This document shows, piece by piece, positions 35,332 to 62,216 of a stretch of DNA of 64,000 bases. Position numbers and translations under genes: made by a program. How positions within the stretch are numbered: position 1 is the first letter of the stretch; every line of letters starts with the position of its first letter. The DNA lies in the NCBI GenBank assembly GCA_003280135.1, contig QCFW01000001.1, positions 1 through 64,000 of the forward strand, given 5' to 3'. Under the pieces are notes generated by a model. That model worked only from the letters and a program-made list of their open reading frames with translations, was not told the DNA's origin and ran no database searches. The stretch is from Prochlorococcus sp. AG-363-N16. Lineage in GTDB: Bacteria > Cyanobacteriota > Cyanobacteriia > PCC-6307 > Cyanobiaceae.

Positions 35332-35405
35332 CGGGGCGTGGCGCAGCTTGGTAGCGCGGGTGCTTTGGGAGCACTAGGTCGCAGGTTCGAATCCTGTCGC
35401 CCCGA
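35332..35405 (+). tRNA. tRNA-Pro(UGG); integration target of the accessory array
   Basis: CGGGGCG...CGCCCCG acceptor; anticodon loop TTTGGGA; 3' 42 nt recur three times downstream. Confidence 0.96.
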
Positions 35406-35434
35406 CTAGGTTTTCAAGATCTCAAGATGAGAAA

Positions 35435-35456
35435 GGGGCGCTGTAGGGGGCGCTAG
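35435..35456. repeat. Paired direct repeat (arm-type-site candidate) behind intact tRNA-Pro
   Basis: GGGGCGCT-GTA-GGGGGCGCT-AG, 29 bp after tRNA end. Confidence 0.7.
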
Positions 35457-35509
35457 ATTATTGCAATAGCCCTCTATAACTTGGTTCTTTTTGACAGGTA
35501 TTTATTTAG

Positions 35510-35842
35510 TCAAGGATTATTTGTATAAATAGCCAGCCCAACCGCAAGAGCTATTGCAACTCCACAGCCAATCCAAACGACCGTCATCCATGGGAATGGT
35601 CTTGATAATCTTTTAGTACATTCATCTAATTGGCTTTTGGTGAGTCGGAAATATTCACTTTGAGGAAGGCGAACATCTTTATATTTTCGATGCAGCTCCT
35701 TTTCAATCTCTCGGTAATCAGTTCTTTTTAGAGTTCTTATGATTTTGTCGGGTTTTAGCTCCTTCATTCGACGTTGAAGGTTCTTGGTTGTACCAATTTT
35801 ATGTAGATCTCCGTTTTGGATGAGATAAATGATGCCAGCCAT
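35510..35842 (-). CDS. GIY-YIG-like (T5orf172/MUG113 type) domain protein with C-terminal TM helix
   Basis: GIIYLIQNGDLHKIGTTKNLQRRMKEL core; C-terminal WMTVVWIGCGVAIALAVGLAIYT. Confidence 0.7.
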   Translation of the reverse strand: MAGIIYLIQNGDLHKIGTTKNLQRRMKELKPDKIIRTLKRTDYREIEKELHRKYKDVRLPQSEYFRLTKSQLDECTKRLSRPFPWMTVVWIGCGVAIALAVGLAIYTNNP

Positions 35843-35921
35843 AATAACTATCCTCCAATTACTTTCTAGCTGTTTCTAATCAGGATTCTTCGGATAGTGT
35901 CGAAACAGATTTTGATTACTA

Positions 35922-36014
35922 ATGGAAGAATTAACCAAAAGAGTGGAAGAACTTGAGAGGAGAGTCCAGCATTTAGAAGCAGTGCTGCGATACCAAGCAA
36001 GGAAAAGCAAATAA
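35922..36014 (+). CDS. 30-aa coiled-coil micro-ORF
   Basis: My translation: MEELTKRVEELERRVQHLEAVLRYQARKSK*; degenerate sister sequence near 48340. Confidence 0.4.
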   Translation: MEELTKRVEELERRVQHLEAVLRYQARKSK

Positions 36015-36027
36015 GTTCTGTTCTCAT

Positions 36028-36255
36028 CTAGCTGCTGCAATCTTCATCTTTAGGCAATTGGAGCCATCCAGTGGTCCATTTTGAAGGATTTTTTAGTTCA
36101 TCCAAAGGAACTCGAATAAGAATTTCTTTGTTATTGACGGGGAAAAGCTCGACCCATCGTTGCTCTTTTTTGCCTCCATATTGCTTGACTTCAAAATGAC
36201 GATAGCCCTCCCTTTTGAAGGCTGATGTCCAAGCTTGGTTAGGTGGCCATCTCAT
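36028..36255 (-). CDS. Small Trp-rich protein (DUF2389/TIGR02450-like), copy 1
   Basis: MRWPPNQAWTSAFKREGYRHFEVKQYGGKKEQRWVELFPVNNKEILIRV; paralog at 48395. Confidence 0.75.
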   Translation of the reverse strand: MRWPPNQAWTSAFKREGYRHFEVKQYGGKKEQRWVELFPVNNKEILIRVPLDELKNPSKWTTGWLQLPKDEDCSS

Positions 36256-36318
36256 ATTCCCTTTCTAGCTGATTTATCTCAAGCTTTCATTTGGCCGCTA
36301 AGGCTGCATAATTCAGAT

Positions 36319-36801
36319 ATGAAACGCTTACTGATAGCACCGTTAATACTTGGATTTACTGCACCTGTTCAGGCGAGGCCTCCGGGTGTGAAACCAGATT
36401 TAAAAGTTGGACAATGCATTGAAACAACCGTTCAAAAGCTTTTTACAAGATGGCCTAAAGAATTTTATTCAGATGAGGTTATAGAAAAATATGGCGTAGG
36501 TTGGGAAGATCAAACAGGGATAATTAAGTTTTCAAATAATCTAACTGTTTATCTATACAGAAATCTAAAGGCTACAAATAGCAAATGGACTCCCCTCACA
36601 ACAAATGGCTCACTAGATTTTAAAGATGCAAAAAACATGTACCAAAATGGCGACAAAATAAAGGTATGTTTAGAATTTATCCCTACCGAATGTAGAAAGT
36701 TTGTTCCAGATGGCAGAGGGGAAATTTATTCGCTCACAAATCAAAGAACCAGAAAGACACATTATGGACATTACGGAAGGAACCAATGTGGAGGAGCATA
36801 A
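36319..36801 (+). CDS. Secreted hypothetical protein
   Basis: Within ORF 36235-36801; likely start MKRLLIAPLILGFTAPVQA with signal peptide; paired Cys. Confidence 0.65.
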   Translation: MKRLLIAPLILGFTAPVQARPPGVKPDLKVGQCIETTVQKLFTRWPKEFYSDEVIEKYGVGWEDQTGIIKFSNNLTVYLYRNLKATNSKWTPLTTNGSLDFKDAKNMYQNGDKIKVCLEFIPTECRKFVPDGRGEIYSLTNQRTRKTHYGHYGRNQCGGA

Positions 36802-36807
36802 GAGACG

Positions 36808-37071
36808 ATGACTCCTAAAAAATTGACAAAAGAGCAACTAGCTCATCTTGAGGAGATTCGTAATTCATATCAGGAGTTACGTAAGCCAGCACCTGAGGGC
36901 TTAAGCGTAATACTGTCCGACCCCGAAGGTGTAATCGCATCAAAAGAAGAAAGAGAAAAACGTTGGGCAGCTGAGAAACTTAAAGCTAAAAAATTCAGAA
37001 AAAAAATAAGACGGTATCTATATGTAGCTTTGATAATTATTGGAGCTATTCTTGTGATCTTGAAAACTTAA
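36808..37071 (+). CDS. Hypothetical protein with C-terminal TM
   Basis: RYLYVALIIIGAILVILKT C-terminus. Confidence 0.6.
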   Translation: MTPKKLTKEQLAHLEEIRNSYQELRKPAPEGLSVILSDPEGVIASKEEREKRWAAEKLKAKKFRKKIRRYLYVALIIIGAILVILKT

Positions 37072-37085
37072 GTCAAAACCAATAA

Positions 37086-37565
37086 ATGAAGCTCATAAGA
37101 AAAAGAATAAGCCAGGTATTAGACGGTTTATTTCCTCAATGGAATAAATACCCTGATAGATATATTTTGGGAGCCATCTTTCTTGTTTGGATTACTGAAG
37201 GACCTTTGGGGTATCTCGATAAAATCACTGTTCATAGCCATGTTCCTAGATATTCGCCACAAAATGCTGCAGAGAAATGCTTGGAAACAGTCAATGCTGC
37301 ATTAAAGGGGAAAGGGCCTGCAAGCTACGATTTTTCCATAGCAGAATCAAAGGGACCATTGATTGAAAGCGGATGTATTTATGACCAATGGGATAGGTGG
37401 GGTAGGAGATTTGATGGAAAATTTCATAGTTATATAGTTTTTAAAAATAAATACAAAGGAGGAAAAGAAGAGAGGTGGTTTATTAGTAGCTTCGCTGTTG
37501 ATAGACCATGGTGGGGGGGCAGACCAACAGCACCAATTCTTCACGACAGGATGAAAATTAAATAG
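37086..37565 (+). CDS. Hypothetical protein with N-terminal TM
   Basis: RYILGAIFLVWITEGPLGYL segment; 159-aa ORF. Confidence 0.6.
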   Translation: MKLIRKRISQVLDGLFPQWNKYPDRYILGAIFLVWITEGPLGYLDKITVHSHVPRYSPQNAAEKCLETVNAALKGKGPASYDFSIAESKGPLIESGCIYDQWDRWGRRFDGKFHSYIVFKNKYKGGKEERWFISSFAVDRPWWGGRPTAPILHDRMKIK

Positions 37566-37628
37566 GGGGTCCCTCTGACGGAAAACCATTGTGGGTCGTC
37601 CGAAGGCTCGAAAAATTCAGACTGGTTC

Positions 37629-37673
37629 TCCCAAAGCACTAGGTGGCTGAGGGGGCGCTGTAGGGGGCGCTAG
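37629..37673. repeat. Degenerate fifth att-like remnant with inverted overlap sequence plus paired direct repeat
   Basis: TCCCAAA (reverse complement of loop TTTGGGA) followed by GCACTAGGT, then GGGGGCGCTGTAGGGGGCGCTAG. Confidence 0.5.
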
Positions 37674-37801
37674 AAAGTTCTAATCCCTTTAAATATGTTC
37701 TAATTTCTTGCGATATTGAGTCTCAAATCGATTTGCATGACTTCTTCTACTCCTTTGATAGCAATGCTTTTTGAGGATTCTCATCTTTTACGACCATGTC
37801 C

Positions 37802-37843
37802 TTTGGGAGCACTAGGTCGCAGGTTCGAATCCTGTCGCCCCGA
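37802..37843 (+). repeat. tRNA-Pro 3' remnant, copy 2 (att site)
   Basis: 42/42 identity to 35364-35405, starting exactly at anticodon loop TTTGGGA. Confidence 0.95.
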
Positions 37844-38063
37844 CTAGGTTTTGAAGGAATGGTAAAAATGGTTGTGCTAAAGGAGTGCTAAAAGCTTTTT
37901 GGGTATGACTGCTTTTTATGCGGACTGATATTGGTTAGCACTAATTTCGGGCCTTCGTACGACCCATATTAGAAAGCCTTATAAAGTACCTTGGTCAATA
38001 AAAAGGGACTGCAATAGCCCCTAAAGAAATCGACTGTCAACCGAGCTTTGACTATATCAAGGC

Positions 38064-38507
38064 CTAATCAACTTTGACAGGAAGAGTTGTTTTCTTGCCC
38101 TTAGCTCCTGCAGAAGCAACAAAAACCAGAGCCTCTTCATTACCATTATTTTCACAGTAATGAACTGTATCTTGAGGTGAAGCAAAGCTATCTCCGGGGC
38201 CTGCTTTTAGTACTTTTCCATCACTTGTTTCACAAGAAAGAGTTCCTCTTACTAAATACACAATCCCAGGTTGTGGATGGAAGTGAAGTGGAGTTTTAAA
38301 ACCAGGCTGAGCAGTTATTTTTTCGAGTTTCATTTGTGCTTGACCTCTTGGGTATTTAAATGAATCTCCATTCCATGATTCAGTTGCAGTAATAAGAGTC
38401 TCAATAACCACAGGTTCAATAGTCTTAGATGAATCTTTTTTTGATGTACAGGCTGCTATTGGGAAAATCATTCCAGCAGTAAGTGTAAAAAGGATAAATC
38501 GTTTCAT
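38064..38507 (-). CDS. Cupin-domain lipoprotein
   Basis: MKRFILFTLTAGMIFPIAACTSKK lipobox; HFHPQPGIVYLVRGTLSCETSDG cupin motif. Confidence 0.82.
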   Translation of the reverse strand: MKRFILFTLTAGMIFPIAACTSKKDSSKTIEPVVIETLITATESWNGDSFKYPRGQAQMKLEKITAQPGFKTPLHFHPQPGIVYLVRGTLSCETSDGKVLKAGPGDSFASPQDTVHYCENNGNEEALVFVASAGAKGKKTTLPVKVD

Positions 38508-38575
38508 AGGATTAAGTAAGTCGCAGCGCAGAGCTTGTTGGCTCTCCATCGACACTAAAGCATTTTTTAAATCTA

Positions 38576-38731
38576 ATGAACAGCACTAAAGCGTCCCCGA
38601 AGGACGAGGTGATTACTTCTGTTTGCGAGTTGGTCGATCAGCAAGAAGCGGTAATCAAAAACCTCAAAGAACAACAACAAGCCCTTATTTATTTTTTAGG
38701 AGGTCTAACGATTATTTCTCTAATCTTTTGA
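38576..38731 (+). CDS. Small coiled-coil/TM protein (51 aa, not in ORF track)
   Basis: My translation: MNSTKASPKDEVITSVCELVDQQEAVIKNLKEQQQALIYFLGGLTIISLIF*; its 3' end is duplicated near 44016. Confidence 0.55.
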   Translation: MNSTKASPKDEVITSVCELVDQQEAVIKNLKEQQQALIYFLGGLTIISLIF

Positions 38732-38822
38732 AACTGCTTTTCCAAAAAGCGAATAACAGAATCAGGAATGGGTTTATTGATAGGCATGATTATTTGCCTA
38801 CAACACAGTGGAAACTCTTTAA

Positions 38823-39017
38823 TCATGGGGGGTTACATTCTCCTTCCCAATTTTTTCCTTCTTTTTCACATGCTTCAGCACTTGGCATTTCTATTTTTTC
38901 CAAATTTCCAAAAATCTTTGTATGTGTACCCCAAGCAATAATCAACCAATGACTCTAGGCATTAGCGGTACTAGGGAGTGCAAGTGCAGCGATTATCGGA
39001 AGTAATAAGCTTTTCAT
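38823..39017 (-). pseudogene. Small secreted protein interrupted by in-frame TAG directly after the signal peptide
   Basis: My translation: MKSLLLPIIAALALPSTANA[TAG]SHWLIIAWGTHTKIFGNLEKIEMPSAEACEKEGKNWEGECNPP*; TAG at 38955-38957 (minus). Confidence 0.7.
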
Positions 39018-39250
39018 ATTTGAATTATGCAGCCTTAGCAGCTTTATTTCTTTTAGCGTAAAGATCAGCCCAATGAGTCTTCTGCCTTTCTCGCGCTTGT
39101 TCAAAGGCTTTGTCAGTAGTAGCTGCTGATGCCCATGGATAAGCTTTTATATTAGAGTCCAGTCCATGTTCCATTGATTCAGCGACACTTCGACTTAGAG
39201 ATCAATCAGAGCAATGGATATAAACTTGTTTTGTTTGACAGAGATCAGAA

Positions 39251-39865
39251 ATGAACATAACCAAGTTTCTATTAATAGATGCCTCATTAATGCTGATAGG
39301 AGTTCCTTTGTTTTTGATAATTCAAAGTAGCAAAGCTAAAGCTTCTCTAATAGAAAATCTGAATGATGCTGGATCGGTAAAGCTGTTTTCTATGAATCTT
39401 CCTGGTAACAAAGAATTGGCGGAACTTGAAAAAGTGGCCAAGAGGGATGGAAGTGGAATTGAACCTCACTCTTTGATTGGCCTTTGGAAATTTTTTTCTG
39501 TATGGAAGCAAAAAAATGACAATGAAGATTTAATTTCAAGTTCTTTCCTTAGGCTTTTTGTCGCAAGCTTAGAGATCAAAAAAGATAAATCCAATCAGTT
39601 ATTTATTACTAATTCCATCCAGTTTGGATCGCTATCAATCCGATTTAGAGGTTATGGCAAGGTGAAAGGAAAACAACCGTTATTACCTTTCTATTTTGAT
39701 TGCATAGAACTTAAGGCTGGCTCAAGGATTTTATTTAGTAGATCTTTGGAGAAACCAGAAGAAGAAAACATGCCTTTTTTTGCATTGATTTCGATAGAAG
39801 AAAATGGCAAATGGCTTTCAGCAAGAGGGCGTGGAGGTGGACTTGCCCTTTGGGTAAAAGGTTAA
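39251..39865 (+). CDS. Conserved hypothetical, possibly PAP/fibrillin-like
   Basis: 204-aa ORF, N-terminal TM; LIGLWKFFSVWKQ...family assignment weak. Confidence 0.5.
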   Translation: MNITKFLLIDASLMLIGVPLFLIIQSSKAKASLIENLNDAGSVKLFSMNLPGNKELAELEKVAKRDGSGIEPHSLIGLWKFFSVWKQKNDNEDLISSSFLRLFVASLEIKKDKSNQLFITNSIQFGSLSIRFRGYGKVKGKQPLLPFYFDCIELKAGSRILFSRSLEKPEEENMPFFALISIEENGKWLSARGRGGGLALWVKG

Positions 39866-39898
39866 AATTAATCTTCTAAAACTTAAATGCCGCAGTGT

Positions 39899-39939
39899 TT
39901 TGGGGTACTAGGTTGCAGGTCCCAATACTGTCGCCCCGA
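39899..39939 (+). repeat. tRNA-Pro 3' remnant, copy 3 (diverged)
   Basis: TTTGGGGTACTAGGTTGCAGGTCCCAATACTGTCGCCCCGA aligns to tRNA 3' 42 nt. Confidence 0.88.
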
Positions 39940-39957
39940 TCAGTATTGGCAAGGGAT

Positions 39958-40131
39958 CTAAGCGAAGGGTAAAATAGGGTCAAAACTTACTTTGCAAATA
40001 TTCCCTTTCTTGCCGCACCAAACTTCAAATGTTTGCTTTTGATATTTAGTATTCTCTGCCTCTTTTAAATCAGTATTAACAGTAGTAGGGAGTGCAATAG
40101 CTACAAGTAGTGGAAGTAGTAAGCGTTTCAT
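39958..40131 (-). CDS. Small secreted protein (57 aa, not in ORF track)
   Basis: My translation: MKRLLLPLLVAIALPTTVNTDLKEAENTKYQKQTFEVWCGKKGNICKVSFDPILPFA*. Confidence 0.65.
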   Translation of the reverse strand: MKRLLLPLLVAIALPTTVNTDLKEAENTKYQKQTFEVWCGKKGNICKVSFDPILPFA

Positions 40132-40316
40132 TTCTTTGCTTTCTTTAGCCCAAGCATTTCTGCCATTTTGCCAGTAAAAGTAAAATAGCCAATTGCTCCA
40201 ATAAACAATAAAAACGCAATCAGATTTGGAACTATCCCTCCAATAATTTGAGCTTCTCCAAAACTTAGAAACATGATCACTACAAATACCCTTGCCCAGT
40301 TATCAGTAAAGCTCAT
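40128..40316 (-). CDS. Small TM protein (start MSFTDNW within ORF 40128-40346)
   Basis: RVFVVIMFLSFGEAQIIGGIVPNLIAFLLFIGAIGYF; ATGA overlap with upstream 44-aa ORF. Confidence 0.6.
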   Translation of the reverse strand: MSFTDNWARVFVVIMFLSFGEAQIIGGIVPNLIAFLLFIGAIGYFTFTGKMAEMLGLKKAKK

Positions 40317-40447
40317 TTGCTTAGCCCTGAGAAGAAAAAGAACCAAGTAAAGACAATCACGTTTAATGCAACTGTTAAAGAGATTGCAATGACCTTGAAA
40401 GTTTTCCCAACTTCTTCGGTCTTTGGATTTAATTTGACTCTTGCCAT
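40313..40447 (-). CDS. Small TM protein (44 aa, not in ORF track)
   Basis: My translation: MARVKLNPKTEEVGKTFKVIAISLTVALNVIVFTWFFFFSGLSK*. Confidence 0.6.
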   Translation of the reverse strand: MARVKLNPKTEEVGKTFKVIAISLTVALNVIVFTWFFFFSGLSK

Positions 40448-40477
40448 ATATCTATTATGCCAATGACATTAAATTGT

Positions 40478-40519
40478 TTTGGGAGCACTAGGTCGCAGGT
40501 TCGAATCCTGTCGCCCTGA
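40478..40519 (+). repeat. tRNA-Pro 3' remnant, copy 4 (distal att candidate)
   Basis: 41/42 identical to 35364-35405; following ~90 bp also resembles the sequence after the intact tRNA. Confidence 0.95.
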
Positions 40520-40708
40520 CTAGGTTTTCACAGTCTCAAATTGCGAAAAGGTAGCTTTAGGGGTAGCTAGATTGTTATAAGCTACCTCTATGACTTGGTT
40601 CTTTTTTAGTTAATTCTCTAAATCTGAGGAAGATGAATTCAGTCTTGAGCAAGAGATGAGTCGATTGCGTAATCTTTTATATGAGCAAATAGGGAACCAA
40701 ACTAGGTA

Positions 40709-41408
40709 ATGTCATACATCTAGATTCAACAAAGCAAGTGGAATTGCTATTGTAGTTTCAATACTTCTGGCGGTCTTAGAAACAGAGAGTGATATAGAAC
40801 CGCAATTTGGGAAAATAATTCGCCATATTGATCTGTTCATAGGACTTCTTTTTTGTATCGAGTACTTTTGTTTTCTTTGGGTTTCTCCTCTGCAGCACCG
40901 GTATGGAAGAGGAATCAAAGGTGCTATTGGTTACATTTTTTCTCCACTAGCAATTATTGATGCGATAGCGATATTTCCAACATTCGTTGGCGCTCTTGGT
41001 TCTCAGTTCTATATTCTTCGTGTCATTCGTCTACTTAGAATTGCAAAAGTAGGAAGATTAAAAAGATTTCAGAAAAGCGTTTCTCACTTTAATTATGCAA
41101 TTAGTTCAAAGAGCCGTGAATTGCAATTGGCAGCAATTTACACAGGTATTCTTTTGCTTCTTAGTAGTACGTTGATGTATCTCGTTGAAGGGGGTATTCA
41201 ACCAGAGATTTTTGGTTCAATCCCAAGATGTATCTGGTGGGCAATAACCACTGTGACGACAGTAGGTTATGGAGATTCAATCCCAATTAGTGCGTTAGGG
41301 AAAATAGTTGCATCAATTACAACCCTTTTGGGTATTGGAGTTATAGCAGTTCCTATAGGGATAATTGCTGCAGGATTTACCGAGTCATTATCTAAAAAGA
41401 TTGATTAG
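40709..41408 (+). pseudogene. Voltage-gated-type potassium channel, full frame ~228 aa but start codon displaced by a frameshift
   Basis: Frame 40722-41408 is open through RFNKASGIAIVVSILLAVLE...TTVTTVGYGD selectivity filter; only nearby ATG (40709) is one frame off and meets TAG at 40721. Confidence 0.75.
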
Positions 41409-46012: not shown

Positions 46013-46492
46013 ATGGGATCATTAACGATAAAAGTCTCAGCTAAAGCTGAGGCGATGATAGCAACTCTCCAGAAGGAGATTTTTAATCGTAGACGCAAGA
46101 AAGTTACTGCAGTGGGTGTAGTAGAGACTCTTGTAGAAAGCGGTGCGAAGTCTCAATCTGATAAGCGTTATGCTGCTTCTTGGAAGAACCTAATCAAGGA
46201 TATTGAGAAAGCGGCTAAAGCTTCAGAAGTACATGGCAATAAGCCAGCCAACATCTCAGCTGAAGAGTGGGCAATGCTAGTAGCTCACCGTACACGTAAG
46301 GGAGCTGCAGCTACCAAGAAACCAGCACCTAAGAAGCGTGTGGCAAAGAAAGCAACTGCTAAGAAAGCAGCACCTAAAAAGGCTGCAGCTAAGAAGACTG
46401 TTGCTAAGAAAGCAGCAGCAGCTCCGGCAGCAGTCAAGCCAAGAAAGGCTAGACGTGCAAAGAGAGCTAAGGCTCCAGCAGCAGCTAAGTAG
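46013..46492 (+). CDS. Histone-H1-like protein with Lys/Ala/Pro-rich C-terminal tail, copy A
   Basis: Folded N-terminus (MGSLTIKVSAKAEAMIATLQKEIFNRRRKKVT...) then KKxAxKKAAPKKAAAKK tail. Confidence 0.8.
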   Translation: MGSLTIKVSAKAEAMIATLQKEIFNRRRKKVTAVGVVETLVESGAKSQSDKRYAASWKNLIKDIEKAAKASEVHGNKPANISAEEWAMLVAHRTRKGAAATKKPAPKKRVAKKATAKKAAPKKAAAKKTVAKKAAAAPAAVKPRKARRAKRAKAPAAAK

Positions 46493-48394: not shown

Positions 48395-48628
48395 TCATTT
48401 CTTGTCATTGCAATCGTCATCTTTAGGTAACTGGAGCCAGCCGGTTATCCATTTTGAACGAACCTTTAATTCATTCCAAGATATTCTAAGAAGGATTTCT
48501 TTATTGTTGACGGGAAATAGCTCGACCCATCGTTTATCTTTCATACCTCCGTATTGCTTGACTTCAAAATGTCGATAGCCTTCTCTTTTGAAAGCTGATG
48601 TCCAGTTTTTGTTAGGAGGCCACCTCAT
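48395..48628 (-). CDS. Small Trp-rich protein (DUF2389/TIGR02450-like), copy 2
   Basis: MRWPPNKNWTSAFKREGYRHFEVKQYGGMKDKRWVELFPVNNKEILLRI. Confidence 0.75.
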   Translation of the reverse strand: MRWPPNKNWTSAFKREGYRHFEVKQYGGMKDKRWVELFPVNNKEILLRISWNELKVRSKWITGWLQLPKDDDCNDKK

Positions 48629-49197
48629 AATATTTTGTCTTCATTTTTGAAGTTTTTAAAACTTACATCAAAGATTAATTTACATACGATAGAAATGAGT
48701 TTTATTACCGAATTAACAACTGCTGTATTATTTTAATGAGATAGTGATAGCCATCTAATCATGTATATAAGAATCTTTTTTCATTAGCTGGAAGCATAAG
48801 CTTCAAATTTATTCTTAAAAATATGGATTAAAATATTAGTCACGTTCAATAGTATTTAGGTTTTAGTAGTCGAAGACTGAAGAATTTAGAACCAAGACTC
48901 CTCAAATTATCATCAAGAAAGTATAATATTGAGTGAGCTTTTGATCTAATTGGGTTTTCCACATTGTCCTATTTGTGTAATTCTCGCGATGACAGCCCTT
49001 TGTTTAGGGCTTACCCGTACTCAGATGTTTACTTTTCTTGTTAAAGAGTCGCTAAAAAGAAAAAAAATTTGCTCCTCTTAACTTAGTTTTTAGTGGACTT
49101 TGTTTTTATTTTTATTAGATTGATTGAAATGCTTTAGTATTGATTGCAGTCATTCGACCTTAGCTTTCTATCTCATTACTTTATTTGCATATCAATT

Positions 49198-61608: not shown

Positions 61609-61715
61609 GACCATATTTTCACGTAATATAGGTTTTATATGTCTTAGACACGGTTTGTATGTTGTATTTTACGCCTTATATGTGTTAGAGGTAGATATTG
61701 GACTTAACTACTCAC

Positions 61716-62216
61716 ATGGGACAACTATCTATAAAAGTTTCAGCAAAGGCTGAGGCTATGATTGCCACTCTGCAGAAAGAGATTTTTAATCGCCGTCGTA
61801 AAAAAGTTACTGCACAAGGTGTAGTTGAAACTCTTGTTGAATCTGGTGCAAAATCTCAATCTGATAAGCGCTATGCAGCTTCTTGGAAAAACCTAATCAA
61901 GGATATAGAGAAAGCAGCTAAGCAATCAGAAGTACATGGCACTAAGCCAGCCAATGTTTCCGCTGAAGAATGGGCATTAATTGTTGCTTATCGTACGCGT
62001 AAGGGGGCGGCTGTAAAGAAGGCTGCACATAAAAAGCGTGTAGTAAAGAAGAAAACAACTGCAACGAAGGTGGCTCCTAAGAAAGTGACTTCTAAAAAAA
62101 TTGCTGGAAAGAAGACAACTGCCAAGAAGGTTTTAGTGAAGAAAGTAGCTCCAACTGTAGCTACTAAGCCAAGACGAGCCAGGAGAGCTAAAAGAGCTAC
62201 AGCCACTGCTAAGTAG
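61716..62216 (+). CDS. Histone-H1-like protein with Lys/Ala-rich tail, copy B
   Basis: MGQLSIKVSAKAEAMIATLQKEIFNRRRKKVTAQGVVETLVESGAKSQSDKRYAASWKNLIKDIEKAAK; ATG at 61716 aligned with copy A start. Confidence 0.8.
   Translation: MGQLSIKVSAKAEAMIATLQKEIFNRRRKKVTAQGVVETLVESGAKSQSDKRYAASWKNLIKDIEKAAKQSEVHGTKPANVSAEEWALIVAYRTRKGAAVKKAAHKKRVVKKKTTATKVAPKKVTSKKIAGKKTTAKKVLVKKVAPTVATKPRRARRAKRATATAK

Follow-up and report, generated by a model that had tools for sequence, protein, structure and literature searches.

A probable stack of tRNA-Pro-targeted elements in Prochlorococcus, with an integrase-less mini-element whose arm word may serve as an integrase address

The window analyzed here is a 64,000-nucleotide stretch of Prochlorococcus sp. 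AG-363-N16 (contig QCFW01000001.1, positions 1 to 64,000), in which a tRNA-Pro(UGG) gene is followed by an array of partial copies of its own 3' half. An initial annotation had described this array as tandemly accreted, integrase-less mini-elements. We find that its leftmost segment, which we call element 1, is bounded at both ends by a copy of the attachment (att) core and carries the same short tandem repeat, or arm word, inside each end (the P' arm on the left and the P arm on the right). The features on which the argument rests are the following.

35332–35406, plus strand: intact tRNA-Pro(UGG) gene (ARAGORN), 5' half chromosomal, 3' half from the leftmost element
35364–35405, plus strand: att core 1, the 7-bp overlap TTTGGGA (anticodon loop) plus the tRNA 3' half; left end of element 1
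37802–37843, plus strand: att core 2, 42/42 identical
39898–39939, plus strand: degenerate att core, 35/42, without arm repeats
40478–40519, plus strand: att core 4, 41/42
35364–37801, plus strand: element 1, by its sequence a complete integrase-less mini-element of 2438 bp with the same word at both ends
35435–35457, plus strand: P' arm of element 1, GGGGCGCT twice, 12 bp apart (GGGGCGCTgtagGGGGCGCTAGA), with a partial inverted copy, AGCCCT, after it
37652–37674, plus strand: P arm of element 1, a 23-mer identical to the P' arm, 150 nt left of core 2

The recurrence of the tRNA 3' half reported earlier is real: a 38-mer searched at up to 3 mismatches has 3 matches in the window and none in 100 shuffles, and beyond the four copies no window position reaches 26 of the 42 nucleotides. 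Chance repeats can be rejected, as the core copies lie far above shuffles. From start to start the cores are 2438, 2096 and 580 bp apart. In all window copies the match to the tRNA ends leftward at the anticodon loop, so that the sharp stop in homology claimed by the initial annotation stands on the left. It does not stand on the right, where the likeness of the 35364 and 40478 copies extends about 90 nt beyond the tRNA end (a 132-nt family, 83%); this extension is the P' arm. The window and many of the relatives are draft assemblies, partly from single cells or metagenomes, but the same structure in the one-contig genomes G005, G024 and G204 argues against assembly artifacts.

The position of the exchange can be read from 169 partial copies. 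Going leftward from TTTGGGA, the favored bases are C (89%), G (84%), T (86%), G (75%) and A (53%), followed by C at position −7 (59%) and weak conservation farther out. The resulting sequence, C-N-A-G-T-G-C / TTTGGGA / GCACTAG, forms inverted half-sites around a 7-bp overlap. At position −5 the elements favor A where the tRNA has G, which argues that the left half-site derives from the element. Together with the inverted repeat around the anticodon loop, this places the exchange inside TTTGGGA, in agreement with the crossover site first proposed. Among pairs of loci that switch at the core, 14 are alike on the left and different on the right, and 7 are the reverse.

Element 1 is the only segment of the window with matching arms at both ends, and its 23-mer with the GGGGCGCT repeat has just these 2 matches in its whole assembly, even at up to 3 mismatches. 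The same layout recurs across picocyanobacteria, in collections that hold one genome per species. The tRNA-Pro 3' half, with the intact gene counted, is present in 210 of 301 Cyanobiaceae genomes at up to 17 copies per genome, as well as in named Prochlorococcus, Synechococcus and Cyanobium records and 20 viral contigs. In the 118 nt that follow the core, 80% of the 225 distinct copies with enough flank contain a perfect tandem repeat 7 nt or longer, compared with 4.5% in shuffles and 12% in windows 500 nt downstream. The repeat spacing is 11 bp in 123 copies and 12 bp in 56, and the repeats are centered 33, 55 or 77 nt past the tRNA end, that is, in 22-bp steps of about two helical turns. The words themselves are mostly unrelated from element to element. 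In 47 of 53 testable segments, the word that follows one core appears again to the left of the next one, as a direct copy of at least 7 nt lying between about −100 and −154 from that core; permuted partners give a mean of 14% and a maximum of 24%. Each such segment is therefore a unit, as expected for an attP of the form P-core-P'.

Most of these units have no integrase. Among 96 core-to-core segments, 93 lack one, 2 hold a relic and 1 holds an integrase; the integrase-less segments have a median length of 1.75 kb, and most sampled segments span 0.2–4 kb. Matching words are retained at both ends by 49 integrase-less units. In genome G385, nine cores delimit units of 0.8–2.6 kb that lack an integrase, and most of these have a word of their own at each end. 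The integrase-bearing relatives are larger, about 13–61 kb. Units whose ends match and whose right end bears an integrase gene, either intact or broken, occur in G037 (14.8 kb), G085 (22 kb), G047 (13 kb), G121 (15 kb), G005 (16 kb), G024 (45 kb) and G204 (61 kb); the ends also match in G174, a second G204 unit and G234.

The ends of element 1 recur with other contents. From about 37620 its right end is 80–92% shared with elements of other genomes that bear other cargo, and the GGGGCGCT 21-mer occurs, at up to 2 mismatches, in 20 of 401 genomes. In G177 (L208, 10427–10690) a cargo-free unit of 221 bp lies between two tRNA-Pro cores; it consists of the left and right ends of element 1 fused via the word repeat, and the corresponding ends in the window, 94 and 127 nt, have the same length together. 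Relatives do not all share the segments of the window, the pattern that would have spoken against the initial annotation: the same-genus genome G002 has different elements at this tRNA.

What reads the word is suggested by the integrases of related elements. In 52 loci a core has a tyrosine-integrase gene immediately to its left, transcribed away from it; the word repeats beside the gene mostly lie near −115, at spacing 11, or near −151, where the spacing is mostly 12. These cognate integrases form a divergent family: they fall below the cut-off of Pfam PF00589 or fail to match it, and PHROGs integrase models recognize 4 of 5 tested. Their active-site residues R, K, Y-x-x-R, H and Y are invariant. 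An AlphaFold2 model (predicted local distance difference test score, pLDDT, 86) has an N-terminal region of three strands plus a helix (residues 49–100), then a Cre/XerH-like body; known arm-binding domains begin with three strands plus a helix. The spacing class tracks the integrase tree, with 2 changes compared with 10.6 in shuffles.

The word also covaries with the N-terminal domain. We compared integrase pairs with at least 85% identity in the catalytic part. N-domain identity is 0.67–1.0, mostly above 0.8, in the 27 pairs with the same word and 0.52–0.95 in the 15 pairs with different words (Mann-Whitney p 7e-5, with pairs that are not independent). At the finest scale, loci L267 and L269, whose integrases share 95% identity in the catalytic part and 92% identity in the N-domain, have the words GGGGAGCTA and GGGGTAGCTA; their P arms read GTGGGGGAGCTAGAGGGGGAGCTAGG and GTGGGGTAGCTAGAGGGGTAGCTAAG, with both repeats altered in concert. 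L022 and L258 differ in word from L254, at 93–94% catalytic and 52–53% N-domain identity. Since the word varies from element to element in step with the integrase N-domain, we hypothesize that it acts as an address. A candidate pair with the same word and differing N-domains, L016/L136, was dropped, since L016 is apparently N-terminally truncated or frameshifted. As separate observations, the integrases of two IMG/VR contigs (L162 and L174) are 98% identical in the catalytic part and 62% in the N-domain, with words AAGCGCACAT and AAGCGCATAA, which from the sequences looks like an N-domain swap; and a group of integrases (L266, L268, L270 and L274–L281, with words such as CGAGTGACAA) lies just upstream of a complete tRNA-Pro gene. 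At this complete gene, as opposed to a 3' half, the attachment geometry may differ.

To the right of core 2 the array is in a different state, as the remaining features indicate.

37802–39897, plus strand: segment 2, apparently a decayed, formerly autonomous element with its right arm lost
37874–37892, plus strand: P' arm of segment 2, GTGCTAAA twice, 11 bp apart, with an inverted TTAGCACT at 37935–37942
38064–38555, minus strand: cupin gene, cargo of segment 2
38576–38731: small open reading frame (ORF), cargo of segment 2
39028–39201, minus strand: C-terminal relic of a tRNA-Pro tyrosine integrase, profile positions 374–412 of 415, around the catalytic Tyr
39251–39865: ORF of 204 amino acids, cargo of segment 2
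40550–40568, plus strand: P' arm after core 4, GGTAGCT at 12-bp spacing, with an inverted AGCTACC at 40580–40586

The relic scores 29 bits with a custom integrase profile (E 7.5e-6 in its own genome), and no P partner of GTGCTAAA was found left of 39898 or 40478. As judged from the sequence, segment 2 is an autonomous element minus its right arm and all of its integrase except the end. The 580-bp stretch starts at the degenerate, armless core at 39898. The word at 40550, GGTAGCT, is matched in G237 by the P arm of an element that carries an integrase (L269, GGGGTAGCTA), and the right end of the element starting at 40478 was not found in this assembly. The view that all three segments are mini-elements is consequently not supported; only 35364–37801 qualifies. 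Accretion in tandem at the tRNA is upheld.

Taken together, these observations support, with a probability of about 0.78, a stack of tRNA-Pro-targeted elements of the tycheposon type, in which element 1 is non-autonomous and its arm word serves as an integrase address. The array would have arisen through successive insertions at one attachment site by elements now in varied states of decay. Each unit would run from core (TTTGGGA plus the tRNA 3' half) through P' arm (tandem word), cargo and P arm (same word) to the next core, and an excised circle would form the attP (P-core-P') of a lambda-Int-like tyrosine recombinase. The core-binding and catalytic domains would hold the half-sites flanking the 7-bp anticodon loop, and we infer that the N-terminal arm domain binds the word repeats. 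The core is common to all elements; the word would decide which integrase can assemble the complex. Mini-elements with arms and core but no integrase could then be moved by a matching integrase, whether co-resident or incoming, and element 1 would be expected to move only with an integrase of matching arm specificity.

Mobilization in trans, as first suggested, is made plausible by words shared between genomes. We compared 76 integrase-less units having a word of at least 8 nt with the P arms of 70 sampled integrase elements. The orphan word is present twice in an integrase P arm for 15 of the 76 (shuffled 0.7%, maximum 4%), and these matches are to integrase-bearing elements of other genomes; it is present once for 24 of the 76, which does not exceed the largest shuffle.

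Several results weigh against this reading. No excision, circle or transfer was observed in this analysis. None of the 70 integrase/core pairs examined has an integrase paired with GGGGCGCT, which leaves element 1 with a helper that is hypothetical; GGGGGATCTgtagGGGGATCTACA, the closest scaffold, is that of the L037 integrase. The absence of a recombinase, part of the initial annotation, is confirmed insofar as a custom profile found no intact integrase of this family in the own genome (82% complete), and qualified by the relic in segment 2 and by the integrases that stand beside the same core in related elements. A PF00589 search of the own genome gave no integrase match, and this negative is uninformative because the cognate integrases miss that cut-off. 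The ends of units in G053 and G063 do not match. Our loci are short, so that long units are under-sampled and the counts are biased toward short integrase-less segments. Finally, the 663-bp cargo stretch 36343–37005 of element 1 is 96.7% identical in G002, with a syntenic left flank at 70–81%, a contrast that by itself favors our reading, but the match lies outside any recognizable intact unit; for that reason it may reflect homologous recombination. Separately, searches of viral sequence gave no match to the GGGGCGCT word in a scan of viral contigs, no relative of the L037 integrase in a viral-contig search, and no relatives of the integrases in 50,697 phage records (tblastn).

The segments could instead be mere relics: integrase elements worn down by deletions at their present site, no longer moved in trans and cis-mobilizable at best. 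Segment 2, with its integrase relic and lost P arm, and the degenerate core at 39898 fit such a history; so do the broken integrases carried by G005 and others, and element 1 aligns at its right end with a related integrase leader, stopping near the start codon. Decay in place would, however, be expected to remove one arm frequently, and it does not readily explain 49 integrase-less units with matching words at both ends or GGGGCGCT ends that enclose different cargo, and once none, in several genomes. We regard it as unlikely, though far from negligible. Less probable still is that copy number and content change solely by homologous recombination between tRNA repeats and shared cargo, with no integrase. 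The 42-nt repeats are identical, cargo leader sequences are shared between genomes and within the array, the two complete tRNA-Pro genes of G002 look like conversion, and the 221-bp cargo-free unit can be viewed as a deletion between two arm repeats. The fixed-distance pairing of words, the element-specific left half-site and the integrase genes at the core would all be left unexplained, and homologous recombination probably acts in addition. In G002 (L003, contig C17) the two complete tRNA-Pro genes lie 1.1 kb apart with element arms in between, and they probably reflect gene conversion of a partial copy.

It is quite improbable that the tandem words are other signals, such as a terminator or RNA element, repressor operators or replication iterons. 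A terminator-like hairpin does lie between core and words in many P' arms, the 11–12 bp spacing is iteron-like, and integrase genes begin beside P words, where operators are possible. Yet the direct repeats flank the core left and right at set distances, also in units that have no integrase, and the words covary with the integrase N-domain; paired arm-type sites flanking a tmRNA core have been predicted in Cluster K mycobacteriophages (PMC3203893). If tRNA genes had simply decayed or been duplicated independently, with no mobile elements involved, one diverged copy would be accounted for, but the partial copies lack the same 5' half and are mostly followed by arm repeats. The word-after-core and word-pairing counts reject it, and we give it almost no weight.

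A second core-like site may bear on how integrases are regulated or lost. In element 1 it occupies 37622–37646 (no strand assigned) as CTGGTTC-TCCCAAA-GCACTAGGTGG, near the left boundary of the right-end module common to other GGGGCGCT elements; in this family its spacer TCCCAAA is the reverse complement of TTTGGGA. More widely, a second right half-site, GCACTAGGTCG, is found in 25% of right ends compared with 0.5% of shuffles, mostly 165–169 nt left of the core. Several integrase-less units complete this half-site with a perfect CTAGTGC at a distance of 7 nt, and sites of the type CTAGTGC-N7-GCACTAGGTCG lie left of the P arm in L111, L114, L215, L084 and L037. In integrase-bearing units the second core-like site sits at the integrase start codon, and it may be an autoregulatory site or a path of integrase gene loss. 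A broader and tentative model, to which we give a little less than even odds, is that picocyanobacterial tRNA-Pro islands are stacked mini-cassettes with a shared core and private words. The N-domains would be exchanged or diversified so that a helper moves only cassettes of its own word; under this combinatorial addressing, numerous non-autonomous elements could occupy a single tRNA with no cross-excision, and integrases would possibly be lost via the core-like site over the start codon.

The cargo of element 1 and several neighboring sequences complete the description of the locus.

35510–35842, minus strand: GIY-YIG-type endonuclease-like protein (T5orf172/MUG113 domains; Pfam E 3e-15 / 7e-17)
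36028–36255, minus strand: DUF2389 Trp-rich small protein (Pfam E 1e-17)
36319–36801, 36808–37071 and 37086–37565, plus strand: three small genes without Pfam assignment

The DUF2389 gene (36036–36256) has an 82% similar copy outside the array at 48409–48629. Leader-peptide starts of the form MKRLLL recur at 36297–36332, 38961–39017 and 40075–40131, after the apparent end of an integrase gene; the leader DNA is short, near-identical and repeated inside the array and in G002. Immediately right of the last core, 40700–41408 encodes an ion-channel-like protein (TTVGYGD filter motif in the translation) in an order that is not conserved in the relatives examined. Elsewhere in the window, 46013–46492 and 61698–62216, which are 15.7 kb apart, encode Lys/Ala-rich proteins that resemble each other and have a histone-H1-like tail; across 297 nt their DNA is 82% identical.

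These observations bear on how streamlined marine cyanobacteria gain and lose tiny cassettes without carrying an integrase. Arm words offer readable tags, by which elements can be delimited and orphan cassettes paired with candidate helper integrases of other genomes from sequence alone, and they allow a prediction of which neighbors should excise together. In addition, changes in the DNA specificity of an arm domain can be studied in the many integrase/word pairs, which amount to a natural data set.

Tandem islands at tRNA and tmRNA genes, accretion, integrase-less cis-mobilizable elements (CIMEs) and tycheposons are already known (PMC5704250, PMC3146451, PMC10872708). In the literature we covered, which did not extend to the original tycheposon paper or to Coleman et al. 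2006, we came across no description of an arm word that is hypervariable from element to element over hundreds of sites, or of mini-elements defined by such a word. The latter authors reportedly described a 48-bp element that occurs repeatedly in a Prochlorococcus island. An arm code particular to each element looks new.

Tycheposons of Prochlorococcus, as summarized in PMC10872708, are 4–200 kb and carry a tyrosine recombinase. Going by that summary, the present elements resemble them in tRNA integration, in the tyrosine recombinase of relatives and in forming cargo islands of marine picocyanobacteria. Integration here is at a tRNA gene whose 3' part is regenerated; the recombinase is absent from element 1, a relic in segment 2 and present in related elements at the same core, and at 2438 bp element 1 falls below the summarized size range. 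The same summary mentions no arm-word code. Element 1 also resembles CIMEs and ICESt1-type accretion (PMC5704250), which are integrase-less, keep their att sites and stack in tandem at a tRNA or other gene: it has two cores, both arms and no integrase. CIMEs derive from conjugative or mobilizable elements and move with a neighbor (PMC5704250), whereas here the words of neighbors differ, so co-mobilization should be limited and a matching helper is indicated; Pfam and PHROGs identified no transfer genes among the cargo examined. In the parts of PMC3146451 consulted, the ssrA islands of Dehalococcoides are likewise tandem and bounded by repeats of the target-gene 3' end, 15 of them without an integration module, but they use a serine recombinase and no element-specific arm word is reported there. 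Methylopumilus has additive flexible islands with tRNA-Lys 20-mers, similar in having tRNA 3'-end repeats in a variable island; the portion of PMC10872708 consulted describes no element boundaries at arm sites for them.

There are also parallels with attachment sites of the lambda-Int type. A core with inverted half-sites and arm-type sites on both sides are both present here, and the predicted fold and the covariation agree with arm binding by the N-terminal domain. In Cluster K mycobacteriophages (PMC3203893), too, a shared tmRNA core is flanked on both sides by paired 11-bp arm-type sites, and the arm sites and N-terminal integrase residues differ together between phages. There, four close phages show slight differences in consensus (PMC3203893), whereas the tRNA-Pro elements have dozens of unrelated words and include non-autonomous carriers.

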